Assembly: GCF_019711655.1 (NCBI RefSeq)
Contig: NZ_JAIGNU010000004.1
Location: forward strand, 186,001-250,000
Direction: 5' to 3'
Origin: Qipengyuania mesophila
GTDB taxonomy: Bacteria; Pseudomonadota; Alphaproteobacteria; Sphingomonadales; Sphingomonadaceae
DNA length: 64,000 nt
Shown here in pieces: positions 29,822-36,480 of the stretch (position 1 is its first letter; every line of letters begins with the position of its first letter). The notes beneath the pieces are model-generated. The model was given only the letters and a program-made list of their open reading frames with translations, ran no database searches and was not told the origin of the DNA. The translations under genes were made by a program, and so were the position numbers.

Positions 29822-31222
29822 TCAGCGCGGCGTCTGCCGCAGATCGTCGGCCGCCGGCACCGAAAGGGTGAAGCGTGCGCCCTGCCCCGGCGCGCTTTCC
29901 ACCGTCAGATCGCCGTCCATCGCGCGCGCAATTCGGCGCGAGATGTAGAGGCCGAGGCCCGAGCCGCCGTCACCGCTGCGCCCGAGCCGCTCGAATTTCT
30001 CGAACACTCGTTCCTGCTGCTGCTCGTCGAGTCCGTGGCCCTGGTCGGCAACGGTGATCAGCGCGCGGCTGCCGATGCGGTCGAGCCGGATCCACACCTG
30101 GCTCTCGTCGGGCGAATAGCGGATCGCATTGGCCACGAGGTTGAGCAGGATCTGCAGCACGCGGCGGAATTCGGCGATCGCCAGCTGGCTCTCGCCTTCG
30201 GGCGGGGCGACCAACGTGATGCCCTTTTCGCGCGCCCGCACCCCGAGGATGCCGCAGGCGCGGCGGGCGACGTCGGCCAGCTCGATGCGGTCGGGCGCAG
30301 TGACGAAATCCTCCGATTCGACCACTTCGAGATCGGACAAATCGTCGATCAGCGCGAGCAAGTGCTGCGCGGCCGTGGCGATGTCGGCGGCATAGGAACT
30401 GTATTCGTCCGCCAGCGGACCGGCGAGCTTGGTGCGGATCGTCTCGGCATTGGCGATGATCCGGTTGATCGGCTGGCGAAGTACCGGGGTCAGGTCGCGT
30501 CCGAACGAAGGTCCCTCGCTCGTCTCGACAGCGGCACCATCATCCGCGATCGCCAGAGGGCTGTCGGCGCTCAGGTAGAGCACGAAGCCGGCGCTGCCGG
30601 GTTGCGGTTGCCCCAGCGGCTCGAGATGCGCGGTCCAACTGCGCTGCGAGCCGTCGATCTCGCACCGCGCCCCGTCGAGCAGGCGCCAGTGCAACGGCTG
30701 CTGGTGCGCATTGCCGGGCAGGTCGACGAAATCGGTCCAGGGCTTGCCTACATTGGCGAGCGCCTTCTGCGCGAACTCGGCGAGATCGGGCGCCTCGGTC
30801 TCCACCGACAGCAGACGCTGGTTCGAATCGAGCCGTGCGGTGCAATCGGCCAAATGGCGGTTGATCTCGATCCGCCGCCGCGCCGCCGCGATATCGTTCT
30901 CGGGCGGCAGGTCCTCGCTCTGCCAGCTGACCACATCGATCGTGCAGCCCGCGGCCTCGCCCGCCTCGTTTGTCAGCGGAGCGATTTCCACCCAGGCCGT
31001 AATCCGGTGCTCGCCGTCGACCGCCTCGAACTGACGCGCGAGTCTCAGGCCGAAGCGCTGGGTCTTTTCGACCAGCGCGAGGAGTTCGGGGATGGCAAGC
31101 CGCGTGCCGACAGCGCCGCCGCAGGCCACCTGAAGCTGCGCGAGCGGCTCCTCGGCCTCGACCAGCCTGCCCTCGGTATCGGTCCGGGCATGCGCAAGAT
31201 ATCGTGTTCCGACAGTCGCCAT
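29822..31222 (-). CDS. Histidine-kinase-like protein lacking the phospho-accepting histidine
   Basis: About 466 residues, no membrane segment. Residues 1-220 look like two degenerate PAS-type sensor regions. The dimerisation helix reads SFGRDLTPVLRQPINRIIANAE, where the usual SHELRTPLN has proline in place of His (about residue 246). The ATPase domain is intact: N box LLNLVANAIRYSPDE, G1 VADQGHGLD, F box VFEKFERLG, G2 GSGLGLYIS. It resembles the PleC/DivJ/PdhS class and could act without phosphotransfer, as DivL does with Tyr. The GTG at 31228, overlapping the upstream stop as GTGA, is an alternative start. Confidence 0.8.
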   Translation of the reverse strand: MATVGTRYLAHARTDTEGRLVEAEEPLAQLQVACGGAVGTRLAIPELLALVEKTQRFGLRLARQFEAVDGEHRITAWVEIAPLTNEAGEAAGCTIDVVSWQSEDLPPENDIAAARRRIEINRHLADCTARLDSNQRLLSVETEAPDLAEFAQKALANVGKPWTDFVDLPGNAHQQPLHWRLLDGARCEIDGSQRSWTAHLEPLGQPQPGSAGFVLYLSADSPLAIADDGAAVETSEGPSFGRDLTPVLRQPINRIIANAETIRTKLAGPLADEYSSYAADIATAAQHLLALIDDLSDLEVVESEDFVTAPDRIELADVARRACGILGVRAREKGITLVAPPEGESQLAIAEFRRVLQILLNLVANAIRYSPDESQVWIRLDRIGSRALITVADQGHGLDEQQQERVFEKFERLGRSGDGGSGLGLYISRRIARAMDGDLTVESAPGQGARFTLSVPAADDLRQTPR

Positions 31223-31224
31223 GA

Positions 31225-32187
31225 TCACTCGATTCCGGAAATAGATGTTTCGGCGAGCAAGCGGCGCGCCTCTTCTGTTGCAAACGCGGCGACGGCCCGC
31301 TGTGGCTCGGCCTGCGGATCGAGGCGCAGCACCTGTCGCTCGACATCGCCGCTATCGAGCCCGGCGGCGCGCAAACCCAGTGCGAGGCGGGCGGTCTGCT
31401 TGTGATTGGTCGACAGCACTGTGGCGGTGCGCGACTGTCCCGAACGGGTGGCGAGCGCGGAGAGGAACAGCGCCGCACCGGCCCGATCGATGTCGAGCGC
31501 CTGCAGGCCCTCGTTGCCCATAACCGTGACCACGCGTGCGAGGAGCGCAATCCGCCCCGCCCCTTCGTCGAACGCTTCGCGCAGCTTGCTCTCGGCGCGG
31601 ATCATGGCATCGGAGCGGACCTGCCCGACATAGTCGCGCCAGCCCATCAGCAGGTGGTGGAACAGGTCGCCCGGCAATTCGCTGAGCGGAAGCTCCATCC
31701 GCCGCTGGCTCTGCGCAAACCGCGCCTGAGCGGTAAGCGAGGCCATCGCCGCGCTGGCGAGGCTGCTGTCTTCATCGGCGATCAACTCCTGCACCAGCGG
31801 CGAAAGGACAGGGTCAATGCCATATTGAACTTCCAGCTTTTCGGTCAGCTGCCATTCGATCGCCAGGGCGTGACAATGCGCCAGCAGCGCCGGACTGCCG
31901 AAGAAATGCTCCGCCAGCGCCGCGCCATGGCGCTCGGCAAAGGCTTCGCGCCCTGCCTGTCCCGCGGCTTCGGCCTGCGCCCGCAGCACCTGCCAGGCCA
32001 GATGGTGACACATGCCACGGATGCGCGCGACGATCTCGTCGCTGAACAGCGAATGGTCAGGCGTGGTCAGCAGATGCGACAGGATCGGCGCAATGCGCTC
32101 GAGCGCGGCATCTTCCGCAGCGAGCGCCTCGCGCAGGGTCTCCTGGTCCGAAGCGACCTCAGGGGATGCGGCATCAGGCATCGTCAT
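31225..32187 (-). CDS. Conserved helical protein coupled to the kinase-like gene
   Basis: A 320-residue soluble protein, rich in Ala, Leu, Arg and Glu and predicted almost wholly helical. It contains LARVVTVMGNEGLQALDIDR and ALFLSALATRSGQSRTATVL, which hint at repeated helical pairs of HEAT or DUF2336 type. I cannot assign a family with confidence. Its stop overlaps the GTG/ATG start region of the histidine-kinase-like gene, suggesting the products act together. No signal peptide or membrane segment. Confidence 0.7.
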   Translation of the reverse strand: MTMPDAASPEVASDQETLREALAAEDAALERIAPILSHLLTTPDHSLFSDEIVARIRGMCHHLAWQVLRAQAEAAGQAGREAFAERHGAALAEHFFGSPALLAHCHALAIEWQLTEKLEVQYGIDPVLSPLVQELIADEDSSLASAAMASLTAQARFAQSQRRMELPLSELPGDLFHHLLMGWRDYVGQVRSDAMIRAESKLREAFDEGAGRIALLARVVTVMGNEGLQALDIDRAGAALFLSALATRSGQSRTATVLSTNHKQTARLALGLRAAGLDSGDVERQVLRLDPQAEPQRAVAAFATEEARRLLAETSISGIE

Positions 32188-32222: not shown

Positions 32223-33401
32223 TTATGTCTGCGGCTCGGACGTCAAGAACAGCGAGAGCAGCACTCCCAGAGCCAGCACCCCCGCCACCGGCTGCATGAT
32301 ACCGAGCACCGCCGCGGGGACGAGCAGGACGGTCAACAGGACCCGGTCGGCATAGCTGCGCCGCCAACGTCGGGCGGCGATCCGCTCGCCCAGGTGCAGC
32401 AGGCCGAACAAGACCACCGGAACGAACAGCCGCAGCCATTCGGAATCTTCCGGAGATGCGCGGGCGATCAGAATGACGAGCAGCGGATCGAGCAGGACAG
32501 TCAAAGCCTGGACGAGCATCGGCACCTGGGGGCGCAACTGGCCTGCATGGGCGACCCGCCGAACCACCCCTTCCATGGCGAAGAACAGCGCTGCCATCAC
32601 GGCGAATCCGAAGCCCGGGATCATCCATCCGGCGATGGCGGAGGACAGGGCGAGGAGGCACGCGATCGCCGAGCTCAGCGCGAGAACACGCGGCAGATTG
32701 CCCCCCATCGTATCCTGCGCGAGCCGCACGCCAAGGCGCTCGGCAATCGCCAGCCCGGGCGCGCTGAAGGGCGCGACATCGGCATGACCGGCGACCCAGC
32801 TCCGTTCGCGCGCCGCCAGTTCCTCGGCAGAGGGGTCGCGCAGCCAGCCATGTTCGTCGAGCAGCCGGGTCTCGAGCGGATAGGTGCGTGTGCCGGACTG
32901 CAGCGCAATGCGTAGGAGCGCGGAGGGCGCATCGACATCGCCGGGCAGATGCGCCAGCTGTTCGACCGCACTCCCGCGCACCAGCAAGGCTCCCGCCCAG
33001 GCGAAATGCGCATCGATCCGCTCGTAGCCCCTTGCGATCGCCGGGTCTTCGGGAAACACGAGAATGCCGGGTTTGGCCAGGTGCCGTGCGATGGCTGCTT
33101 CGTCGGGCAGGACCCCCGCTTCGAAAACCAGCAATTCGTCCTGCGCGGCGACGATGCCCGACAGCTTGTGCGGATCGCGCAAGGCGATGAACCGCGCTCC
33201 TGCGGCCTCGGCACGATGCTGCAGAGCGATCACCTCGCGTCCCACCGTCCCGGCGAGACAAGCCACCGTTTCGCAGCCTGCCGCCAGCGCGATGTCGAGC
33301 TGGCGATCGACCAGGCGCGCACCGGCCAGCGTGCGGTACGGCGCAGGCACGGCGCGCGGATCGGCAGGGCTGTGGAGCACGGACAGCAGGGCGATGCGCA
33401 C
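32223..33401 (-). CDS. Nucleotidyltransferase-like domain fused to a membrane domain
   Basis: A 392-residue protein. Residues 1-200 resemble a sugar-phosphate nucleotidyltransferase fold (TLAGARLVDRQLDIALAAGC, VFPEDPAIARGYERI), but a full GxGxRxxP signature is missing. Residues 230-392 are membrane helices with a segment (LVQALTVLLDPLLVILIARA) where CDP-alcohol phosphatidyltransferases would carry their catalytic Asp motif, of which I see only one Asp. The layout recalls bifunctional inositol-phosphate cytidylyltransferase / DIPP synthases. Starts at GTG with GGAG six bases upstream. Activity unknown. Confidence 0.65.
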   Translation of the reverse strand: MRIALLSVLHSPADPRAVPAPYRTLAGARLVDRQLDIALAAGCETVACLAGTVGREVIALQHRAEAAGARFIALRDPHKLSGIVAAQDELLVFEAGVLPDEAAIARHLAKPGILVFPEDPAIARGYERIDAHFAWAGALLVRGSAVEQLAHLPGDVDAPSALLRIALQSGTRTYPLETRLLDEHGWLRDPSAEELAARERSWVAGHADVAPFSAPGLAIAERLGVRLAQDTMGGNLPRVLALSSAIACLLALSSAIAGWMIPGFGFAVMAALFFAMEGVVRRVAHAGQLRPQVPMLVQALTVLLDPLLVILIARASPEDSEWLRLFVPVVLFGLLHLGERIAARRWRRSYADRVLLTVLLVPAAVLGIMQPVAGVLALGVLLSLFLTSEPQT

Positions 33402-33488: not shown

Positions 33489-33785
33489 TCAGTCGAGCGC
33501 GTCGATGAAGGCTTCGATCCGACGGATGACACTCGGATCGCCGGGTGCTCCCGAACGCGCCTCGGCCGCCAGGCCCATCAACTCGACGGCATGGAAACTC
33601 GCGGCGATCGCGTGAAGTCGCTCGGCAGCAACCTCCCAGTTCGCATCGCAGCGCGCCCTGCGCAGCAGGTCGAGCTGGCGCGCCGTGCTGTCGACGAATC
33701 CGGCACGTAGCTCGTTCCGGAGCGCAAGATCGTCGCCGGCCGCGCTCGCCAGGGCGGCAGTGAATGCAATGGAGTGGTACGCCAT
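33489..33785 (-). CDS. Small helical protein, possible degenerate Hpt domain
   Basis: A 98-residue all-helical protein. The segment AERLHAIAASFHAVELMGLAAEA aligns without gaps in two blocks to the Hpt consensus A-H-x-L-K-G-x-A-x-x-x-G-A, with Glu at the phospho-histidine position and His where Lys is usual. Size fits one four-helix Hpt bundle. An ATG at 33785 with AGG eight bases upstream is preferred to the GTG two codons earlier. It lies near a kinase-like gene that also lacks its histidine. Family assignment is tentative. Confidence 0.55.
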   Translation of the reverse strand: MAYHSIAFTAALASAAGDDLALRNELRAGFVDSTARQLDLLRRARCDANWEVAAERLHAIAASFHAVELMGLAAEARSGAPGDPSVIRRIEAFIDALD

Positions 33786-33855
33786 CGCCACAGCCTGCAG
33801 CCAATCGGTTAATGGTGGTTTAAGCCTGCCACCTTTGGTGATAGTTTCGACAGCG

Positions 33856-36480
33856 ATGAGAAAGCGCTCGCTGATCCAGGCCGTCGAACAGTCGGCCGAT
33901 GAAAGCCCTTCGGAAGCTCAGGCTTCTGAGGAGGTTGTGGAAGAAAGCTCGAACATGGAAGAAGACGTGTTCGAGGAAGAATGGATCGAGGAGCCCGAAC
34001 TGCCACGCCATTACGGCTGGGTCATTCCCGCGCTCGCCTTCGTGGCGGTAGCGGGATGGACCGGCTTCTTCCTCTGGGCGCATCAGGCCACCATACTGAC
34101 CCGCCCTGCCCCTGGGGAAGCGATCGATCTGATCGTCCAATGGACGATCCCCGTGCTGTTCGTGATTTCGCTCTGGCTGCTCGCCATGCGCAATTCGACG
34201 CGCGAAGCACGACGCTTTTCCGAAGTCGCGCACAGCCTTTCACTCCATTCCGCTGAACTCGAAACCCGCTTGGCCCGCGTCAATCGCGAACTGAGCCTGG
34301 CGCGCGAATTCCTCTCGAGCCAGAGCCGCGAACTCGACTATCTCGGCCGGACCGCGACCGAACGCCTGTCAGAACATGCCGATCGCCTCCAGGCGCTGGT
34401 CGGGGAGAATGGCGAGCGAGTCGAATCGATTGCAAGTGTCAGCGTTACGGCGCTGGAAAACATGGGTAAATTGCGAGACAACCTGCCAGTTATCGCCAAT
34501 TCGGCCAAGGATGTCTCCAACCAGATCGGCAGCGCCGGGCGCACGGCTCAATCGCAGCTCGACGAGCTCGTTGACGGGTTCGAGCGGCTCAACGAATTCG
34601 GCGCTGCGAGCGAGCGCCAGGTTTCGTCGCTGCGCGAACGGGTCGACGCGGCACTCGAGGCCTTCACCGCACAGGCCGACCAGCTTGCGGCTATCACCGA
34701 TCAGCGTTTTGCCGAATTGCGCGAGCGGAGCGAGAGCTTCCGCGGAGAGCTCGACAGCCGCGAAGTGGACGCGCTCGCCGCCATCCGCTCGCGCTTCGAG
34801 GCACTGCAAAGCGAACTCGCCGAGCTCGATGCGGCGGCCGAGGCGGAGCGCGCGGCGGCGATCGACAGCCTGAGCGAACGGCTCGCCACGCTGCGCGACG
34901 AGGCAGTACAGGCGGGCGCGACGATCCGCGACGGCGAGGCGCACGCACTGACCGCCTGGCGCAACCAGATCGAGGCACTGCAACAGCGGCTGCGCGATGC
35001 GGTGGCCGAAGTCGAGCGGATCGACGAGGCCGCGCTCGCCGCTGCCAATGCCAAGCTGGCCGCGCTCGCGGCCGAGGCGGAAGCCGTCGATGCGCGGGTC
35101 GCCGAACGGAACCGGGCCTTCGCCGCAGAGACCGCGGAGCGCCAGAGCGCCTTTGCCGAGGCCGAAGAGCAGGCCGAAACGCGCCTCACCGAGCGCCTTG
35201 CCGCGCTCGACGAAGCGATCGCCGAACGCCGCGCGGCACAGGCCGAACAGCTCTCGATCATGGCAGCCGAAGGCGAGGAACTCGCCGAGCGGATCGAAGC
35301 GCTCGGAGCGATCTTCCAGACCATTTCGGAACAGGGGCGCGCCGCGGGGACGGATCTCTCGAACGGCATTTCCGAACTCTCCGCGAAGCTCGCCGAGAGC
35401 CGCGAGGCGCTCGACGGGACCGATTCGGCGGTGGCATCGCTGACCGACGCCAGCGTGCGACTGCTCGAGTTGATCCAGGCCAGCGCCAAGCACAGCCGCG
35501 AGGACCTGCCCGAAGCGATGGAAGCCAGCGAGGCGCGCCTAGCCGGCATCGAACATCGGGCCGAAGAGGTTAAAGCCCTGCTCGATCAGGCCAGGGCGGC
35601 CGGCGAGGCGCTCACCGCAAGCATGGAAGCGGCCGAGAGCCGGAGCCGCGACGCGATCGACGGCGTCGAGGCTTTCCAGGCACGCTTCGGCGAAACGAGT
35701 GCGGGCCATGCCGACAGCATCGACGGCCTGCGCGCAAGTGTCTCAGCGCTGGGCGAGGAAAGCGCCGCTCTGTCGGACAAGGCGCAAGGCGAATTGCGCG
35801 ACGCCATCGCGGCTCTGGAAGCGAGCGCGCGCGAAGCGCTGGCGGCGATCGAGGATGAGCAGGCCCAGCGCATCGCGCGCATCGCGGAGCGGGTCGGCGA
35901 GCAGAGCGCGGCGGCGATCGACCGCGCCTTGCGCGAGCACACCGCAGAAGCGATCACCGCACTCGACAAGGCGACCGGGCGCTCGGCCGAGGCCGGGCGC
36001 GAGGTCACCCGCCAGCTGCGCGATCAGCTGGCCAAGGTCAACGAGCTGACGGGAAACCTCGAGAACCGTATTGCCCATGCCCGCGAACGCGCCACCGAGG
36101 AGGTCGACAACGACTTCTCGCGCCGTGTCGCCCTCATCACCGAGAGCCTAAACTCGAACGCCATCGACATTGCCAAGGCGATATCGACCGAGGTCACCGA
36201 CACCGCCTGGGCAAGCTATTTGCGGGGCGATCGCGGCATTTTCACCCGCCGTGCAGTCCGCCTGATCGACAACACCGAGGCGCGCGAGATCGCCGAGCTT
36301 TACGATGCCGATCACGACTTCCGCGAACATGTCAGCCGCTACATCCACGATTTCGAGGCTATGCTGCGCACCATGCTCTCGACGCGCGACGGCCATGCCG
36401 TCAGCGTCACGCTGCTCAGCAGCGACATGGGCAAGCTCTACGTCGTGCTGGCACAGGCGCTCGAACGCCTGCGGCAATGA
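33856..36480 (+). CDS. Membrane-anchored long coiled-coil protein
   Basis: An 874-residue protein. An acidic N-terminus (to about 50) is followed by two helices forming a hairpin (about 54-74 and 93-111) and then about 640 residues of almost uninterrupted coiled coil rich in Glu, Ala, Arg and Leu. A distinct, probably globular end (from about residue 760) reads AKAISTEVTDTAWASYLRGD, RYIHDFEAMLRTML and SSDMGKLYVVLAQALERL. Topology puts the coil in the cytoplasm. It resembles cytoskeletal or envelope-organising proteins; function unknown. Divergent from the Hpt-like gene. Confidence 0.85.
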   Translation: MRKRSLIQAVEQSADESPSEAQASEEVVEESSNMEEDVFEEEWIEEPELPRHYGWVIPALAFVAVAGWTGFFLWAHQATILTRPAPGEAIDLIVQWTIPVLFVISLWLLAMRNSTREARRFSEVAHSLSLHSAELETRLARVNRELSLAREFLSSQSRELDYLGRTATERLSEHADRLQALVGENGERVESIASVSVTALENMGKLRDNLPVIANSAKDVSNQIGSAGRTAQSQLDELVDGFERLNEFGAASERQVSSLRERVDAALEAFTAQADQLAAITDQRFAELRERSESFRGELDSREVDALAAIRSRFEALQSELAELDAAAEAERAAAIDSLSERLATLRDEAVQAGATIRDGEAHALTAWRNQIEALQQRLRDAVAEVERIDEAALAAANAKLAALAAEAEAVDARVAERNRAFAAETAERQSAFAEAEEQAETRLTERLAALDEAIAERRAAQAEQLSIMAAEGEELAERIEALGAIFQTISEQGRAAGTDLSNGISELSAKLAESREALDGTDSAVASLTDASVRLLELIQASAKHSREDLPEAMEASEARLAGIEHRAEEVKALLDQARAAGEALTASMEAAESRSRDAIDGVEAFQARFGETSAGHADSIDGLRASVSALGEESAALSDKAQGELRDAIAALEASAREALAAIEDEQAQRIARIAERVGEQSAAAIDRALREHTAEAITALDKATGRSAEAGREVTRQLRDQLAKVNELTGNLENRIAHARERATEEVDNDFSRRVALITESLNSNAIDIAKAISTEVTDTAWASYLRGDRGIFTRRAVRLIDNTEAREIAELYDADHDFREHVSRYIHDFEAMLRTMLSTRDGHAVSVTLLSSDMGKLYVVLAQALERLRQ

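Follow-up and report, generated by a model that had tools for sequence, protein, structure and literature searches.

The window analyzed here is a 64,000-nt stretch of the Qipengyuania mesophila genome, which is assembled as 3.13 Mb in 7 contigs. Four genes follow one another on its reverse strand, encoding an Hpt-like protein (33489–33785), a 392-residue membrane protein (32223–33401), a 320-residue divergent DUF2336 protein called the partner below (31225–32187), and a 468-residue pseudo-histidine kinase (29822–31228). The partner gene and the start of the kinase gene share 4 nt, an overlap that had been described before, and the two gaps farther upstream are 35 and 87 nt. The preliminary description had taken partner and kinase for a two-gene unit, but the pseudo-Hpt gene and the gene of an IPCT-DIPPS-like membrane protein precede them on the same strand, behind a CtrA-type box.

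From the other side, the citrate synthase gene converges on the kinase gene. Seven flanking proteins were scanned between 23.0 and 41.4 kb (IGPS, ComEC, GltX, citrate synthase, RNase J, CoaX, and a Nuo subunit), and no response regulator is among them. To that extent the earlier remark that none lies nearby holds, but it had overlooked the Hpt-like gene in the cluster.

A divergent neighbor on the forward strand (33856–36480) has two membrane segments, a long coiled coil, and a conserved C-terminal domain. It is syntenic with the four genes, and its membership in the unit is only putative. The 150-residue C-terminal domain is strongly conserved; 70 of 190 genomes in the class have it, nearly all of them in a single copy. 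The architecture is reminiscent of Caulobacter TipN, to which the gene is a putative counterpart; the accessible portion of PMC10127582 did not decide the matter.

The kinase consists of two divergent PAS-like regions, a DHp region, and a CA domain, and no transmembrane segment was found in it. Pfam recognizes HATPase_c at residues 355–459 (E = 2e-28) and HisKA at residues 250–301 (E = 7.2e-7). The H-box region reads FGRDLTPVLRQPINRII where the canonical form is F...SHELRTPLN, so that Pro248 (codon CCG, 30485–30487, reverse strand) occupies the column of the phospho-accepting His that active HisKA kinases carry. This placement is backed by a full-length profile alignment to relatives reading SHELRTPLN. 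The DHp region spans about residues 242–302 (30323–30505, reverse strand), within which PVLRQPINRIIANAETIR and YAADIATAAQHLLALIDDL are strongly conserved. In the CA, or ATP-binding, domain (residues 355–460; 29849–30166, reverse strand), the N, G1, F, and G2 boxes are all present, with their residues conserved, in agreement with the earlier description of a histidine-kinase-like protein that lacks its His but keeps its ATP-binding boxes.

The loss is shared across the family. Among 97 distinct orthologues, which were drawn from 108 sequences and keep both the gene pair and its location, the residue in the His column is P in 91, S in 2, K in 2, A in 1, N in 1, and H in none. It is also P in 80/80 named loci, the loci kept by the search out of 565 relatives, a set that shares genomes with the 97 orthologues. 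In 20 more distant family members, the column drifts to R (6), K (3), A (3), G (2), T (2), Q (2), N (1), and P (1), again without a single H. The H+4 position is mostly Q among the orthologues and mixed among the distant members, and the Thr/Asn of the H box is lost in the pseudo-kinase family.

The N-box, G1, F, and G2 residues are kept at ~100% in both sets. Over all 117 sequences, the mean column conservation is 0.88 in the N box, 0.80 in G1, and 0.87 in F/G2, as compared with 0.52 in the N-terminal part. DHp helix 1 past the lost His (0.86) is conserved like the ATP boxes, and helix 2 reaches 0.79. Because the His is missing while the ATP boxes and DHp helices stay conserved, the kinase is, as judged from these alignments, no decaying gene: its acceptor site is dead, but the core remains under selection. 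That decay, a sequencing error, or a strain-specific mutation explains the missing His has next to no chance of being right: nothing was found in its favor, and the His is missing in 97/97 orthologues and 20/20 distant members while frame, ATP boxes, and gene order are kept. Error and strain-specific mutation were rejected on these counts.

The conserved helices bear on another possibility, regulation by a hetero-dimer in which the pseudo-kinase joins an active cellular HisKA kinase and either silences it or redirects it to another target. Strong conservation of the DHp dimer helices would suit such a hetero-dimer, as would the intact CA domain, which could even phosphorylate the His of the other kinase in trans. 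But hetero-dimers of HisKA kinases are rare and no partner kinase is co-conserved beside the pseudo-kinase, and we regard this possibility as rather improbable.

The kinase is widespread. An alignment search matched it at E of 1e-50 or better in 241 of 298 family genomes (80/96 genera) and left 57 genomes without such a match, the residues having been read in only part of the 241. It is kept in all 37 genomes of the genus. The partner was found by a single-sequence search in 36/61 relatives, including 36 of the 37 genus genomes, and in 134/298 family genomes (45/96 genera). In most of the regions fetched around partner genes (20 + 20 + 18, mostly one per genus), the same order recurs: divergent gene, Hpt-like gene, membrane protein gene, DUF2336-like gene, kinase gene, and citrate synthase gene. 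The 80 named loci contain the kinase in 80, the membrane protein in 79, the partner in 79, the Hpt-like protein in 62, citrate synthase in 77, and the divergent gene in 76.

The partner had been called an unknown helical protein, a description that no longer fits. The window partner itself gives no match to PF10098, but 4 of 27 relatives match it directly (best E = 2.6e-23). Among 3 further distant members, 2 also match and L359 does not. By hhalign, the partner family profile aligns with that of the DUF2336 family over 277 columns (probability 98.6, E = 1.4e-15). It is accordingly a divergent DUF2336 protein by profile–profile comparison and by the matches of its relatives. A full-text literature search for DUF2336 turned up no paper.

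Outside the family, the same pair occurs with its His. The best-scoring kinase homologue was taken from 20 of 24 genomes of other families in the order. All 20 have a normal box of the SHELRTPLNAI type, 19 by pattern and the last by alignment, and the His column is invariant in the 17/17 alignment rows of other-family kinases, including the one that the pattern missed. In 18/20, the kinase gene lies directly downstream of a gene matching the partner profile, and the other two reach contig ends. When four of these pairs were checked with Pfam, the upstream gene was DUF2336 (E = 1e-68 to 1e-71) and the kinases had PAS regions. The preliminary description had held that close relatives with a normal His would point to a sequencing or strain-specific change; relatives with a normal His do exist in the other families (20/20), but none was found within the family.

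Profiles of the pseudo-kinases and of the His-bearing kinases align by hhalign over 439 columns that include the PAS regions (probability 100, E = 4.7e-59). In a 53-row tree, which has an unsettled bootstrap, long branches, and no DivL among its rows, the pseudo-kinases come out as a single group (99/98), with the DUF2336-linked kinases next to it (100/99 for the joint branch). The pairs of the other families, with DUF2336 followed by PAS-PAS-HisKA-HATPase, resemble the window pair in gene order, full-length kinase homology, a related partner, and CtrA-type boxes upstream, and differ from it in the normal SHELRTPLNAI box and in PAS regions that Pfam recognizes (in the four checked). Because the best homologues in other families keep both the His box and an upstream DUF2336 gene, the pseudo-kinase and its partner are, on this sequence evidence, descendants of an ordinary pair of DUF2336 and PAS-PAS-histidine kinase. 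Neither the Hpt-like gene nor the IPCT-DIPPS-like gene was found in the stretches fetched around the other-family pairs.

DivL of Caulobacter had been named as the precedent for such a pseudo-kinase. According to the accessible part of PMC4211667, the kinase core of DivL has no kinase activity and has instead become a means of sensing a phosphorylated receiver; the protein acts with DivK~P and CckA and can dispense with its CA domain. It is a proper precedent in function, but the window kinase is not DivL. As far as that part of PMC4211667 describes DivL, the two share a replaced H-box His (Tyr550 in DivL), the N, G1, F, and G2 boxes, the PAS-DHp-CA layout, and a conserved patch near the lost His with Arg at H+3 and Pro at H+5. 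The window kinase differs in being shorter, in having no membrane helix that was found, in being paired with DUF2336, and in carrying not Tyr at the His position but P (or R, K, A, G, T, Q, or N in its family).

Of the genome's other proteins with an ATPase domain, a 798-residue kinase reads NMSYEFRTPLTS, with SYEFRTP and hence the DivL-type Tyr, and the remaining HisKA-type kinases examined keep their His. Given this separate DivL-like Tyr kinase, the window kinase is, by its residues, the second His-less kinase of the genome. DivL orthology was rejected as the simplest reading, since the nearest kin are the DUF2336-linked kinases (in a tree without DivL) and the SYEFRTP kinase is separate. 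Because the ATP boxes are near-invariant in the window family, unlike the CA domain that the accessible text of PMC4211667 gives as dispensable in DivL, nucleotide binding probably matters in the window kinase.

The first gene of the unit starts with ATG at 33785 by conservation, while the ORF list has GTG at 33791. Its product is Hpt-like by several measures: Pfam Hpt is matched by 12 of 29 members (best E = 1.6e-4), the predicted structure (pLDDT of 92.1) has an Hpt fold, and the first six PDB matches of the model in Foldseek are Hpt domains, at weak E values of 0.2–1.6. A canonical Hpt that stands beside a receiver in another family aligns its His onto the acceptor column of the Hpt-like proteins. 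When the Hpt alignment was searched against PDB sequences, nothing beyond chance-level matches came up, most of them to capsid proteins.

Hpt domain proteins thus share with the Hpt-like protein a four-helix fold and profile matches, both to Pfam Hpt and to the canonical Hpt beside the receiver, but they have a phospho-accepting His that it lacks. The window protein has Glu there. In 54 Hpt-like proteins, the acceptor column reads M in 17, L in 12, Q in 12, W in 4, E in 3, A in 2, G in 2, S in 1, Y in 1, and H in none. The His is likewise absent from 62/62 named loci and from 11 of 12 distant members. At L354 (2878–3180), a distant family member, the Hpt-like protein retains the acceptor His (AAHRLKG) and the kinase His is gone.

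The missing acceptors count in weighing whether the pseudo-kinase is still a kinase, of another substrate, whose GHKL domain phosphorylates a residue of a partner instead of its own DHp, as in mitochondrial PDK and SpoIIAB. Near-invariance of the ATP-coordinating residues over 117 sequences, which exceeds what a pure scaffold needs, speaks for this explanation. However, the acidic residue next to the His, which is needed for His transfer, is gone: H+1 is not E/D but V or A in 92/97 orthologues and A, V, or S in 20/20 distant members. Besides, the pseudo-Hpt offers no acceptor His (0/54), and no alternative acceptor is evident. We consider continued kinase activity on another substrate unlikely, while leaving it a real chance.

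All 37 genus genomes retain the kinase, but no Hpt-like gene was found in 13 of them. Flagellin is absent from 23/37 genus genomes, and the pseudo-kinase is retained there. A motility link through the Hpt gene was also considered and rejected, as flagellin occurs in 9/24 genus genomes with the Hpt gene and in 5/13 without it, showing no association.

The membrane protein has a predicted IPCT-DIPPS-like fold, with a nucleotidyltransferase-like N-terminal half and a membrane C-terminal half. In a sequence-profile search, its top match is the IPCT-DIPPS structure 4mnd (E = 3.8e-4), a nucleotidyltransferase fused to a CDP-alcohol phosphotransferase. The predicted structure (pLDDT of 92.9) matches 4mnd over the whole length (E = 3.8e-8, TM of 0.60/0.58). 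The likeness does not extend to the catalytic motifs. CDP-alcohol phosphotransferases carry a signature motif of the DxxDGxxAR type, and neither this motif nor a nucleotidyltransferase loop was found by pattern in any of 72 members. The members have low mutual identity.

This protein could be taken as the effector of an envelope or lipid module, gated by the signaling-like proteins, with CtrA serving only as transcriptional input. Its presence in 79/80 named loci and its whole-length fold likeness to 4mnd fit that proposal. The absence of both motifs by pattern (0/72) and the low identity among members stand against it, and we give it little credence.

The CtrA-type box TTAAACCACCATTAAC (33808–33823, reverse strand) lies in the divergent promoter, some 22 nt ahead of where the Hpt-like gene starts. 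It agrees at 9/9 positions with TTAA-N7-TTAAC, which the accessible part of PMC7200025 reports as the CtrA ChIP-seq consensus in Hyphomonas. Over 52 loci, the best box scores 9/9 in 9, 8 in 18, 7 in 18, 6 in 5, 4 in 1, and 3 in 1, the two lowest scores coming from short loci that lack upstream DNA (L082 and L088). Shuffles, which here and below preserve base composition only, reach a score of at least 8 in 1.4%. The position is conserved as well: 45/45 sites scoring 7–9 stand 163–168 nt ahead of the same codon, and in 60/62 named loci the box is at 163–169 nt. When the Hpt gene is lost (23 loci, some from the same genomes), the box before the membrane protein gene scores 9 in 3, 8 in 9, 7 in 7, and 6 in 4.

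Boxes scoring at least 8 are also present in 13/18 promoters of the His-bearing DUF2336 pairs (11% of shuffles) and in 13/20 stretches upstream of Flp pilins (3.6% of shuffles). Flp pilin is a classical CtrA target. Of the three places with the exact box in the genome, one (L147 1501-1516; G000:C1:91302-91317) precedes a Flp pilin match by about 110 bp. Genome-wide, the exact box is not enriched, with 4 hits (at 3 places) versus 4 for the reversed pattern, and a looser pattern gives 14 hits versus 32 in its control. Because the shuffles keep only base composition and there is no genome-wide enrichment, CtrA control of the operon is put forward as a strong hypothesis and not as a result.

In Sphingomonadales, DivJ-PleC-DivK is degenerate and CckA-ChpT-CtrA is kept, as stated in the accessible part of PMC2877005. 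Given this and the DivL principle, the best reading is that the operon encodes a CtrA-controlled docking or scaffold module that works independently of phosphorylation, DivL-like in principle but not DivL; we put its probability at roughly 0.5. The pseudo-kinase would not autophosphorylate and would bind ATP as a structural or conformational ligand. Its conserved DHp surface may serve to dock either a receiver domain or a true kinase, for instance CckA, in the way that DivL docks DivK~P and CckA, and DUF2336, the pseudo-Hpt, and the membrane protein may help to place or gate that contact. Since the operon is probably driven by CtrA, the module would most likely act in Sphingomonadaceae as an input to the CckA-ChpT-CtrA pathway, for feedback or for polarity.

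Several observations weigh against this docking module. The DivL-like Tyr kinase of the genome may already fill the DivL job, and the near-invariant ATP boxes suggest a real nucleotide function. The equal genome-wide counts of exact and reversed boxes bear on its CtrA part. Nor does Hpt presence track flagellin, and the 23 flagellin-less genomes of the genus still have the kinase.

The conserved His-less kinase and its degraded neighbors suggest a signaling device that has done with phosphate and now works by binding. More tentatively, and with the odds somewhat against it, the whole operon of catalytically dead parts (pseudo-kinase, pseudo-Hpt, and pseudo-nucleotidyl/CDP-alcohol transferase) might form, together with DUF2336, a CtrA-controlled phosphate-free complex that replaces the DivJ-PleC-DivK input in Sphingomonadaceae.

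Pseudo-histidine kinases are known mainly from DivL, and the window kinase would be a second one, independently derived and fixed across much of a large family. With the His-bearing ancestor pair surviving in sister families and a His-less Hpt as neighbor, what a two-component pair does after phosphate becomes testable. The operon also supplies candidates for the missing inputs of the sphingomonad CckA-ChpT-CtrA pathway, the Caulobacter inputs being degenerate there according to the accessible part of PMC2877005, and would give a first genetic handle on DUF2336. In the literature on pseudo-histidine kinases, no paper on sphingomonads was found by title or abstract start, and nothing on the window kinase gene.

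The His-bearing pairs gave two further observations. In 8 of the 22 other-family genomes tabulated, the His-bearing kinase has a Flagellin_N (FlgL-like) gene no more than 10 kb away, and an older flagellar link of the DUF2336-kinase pair is possible. Two other-family loci (L200 and L202) seem, by eye, to hold a second DUF2336-like ORF.
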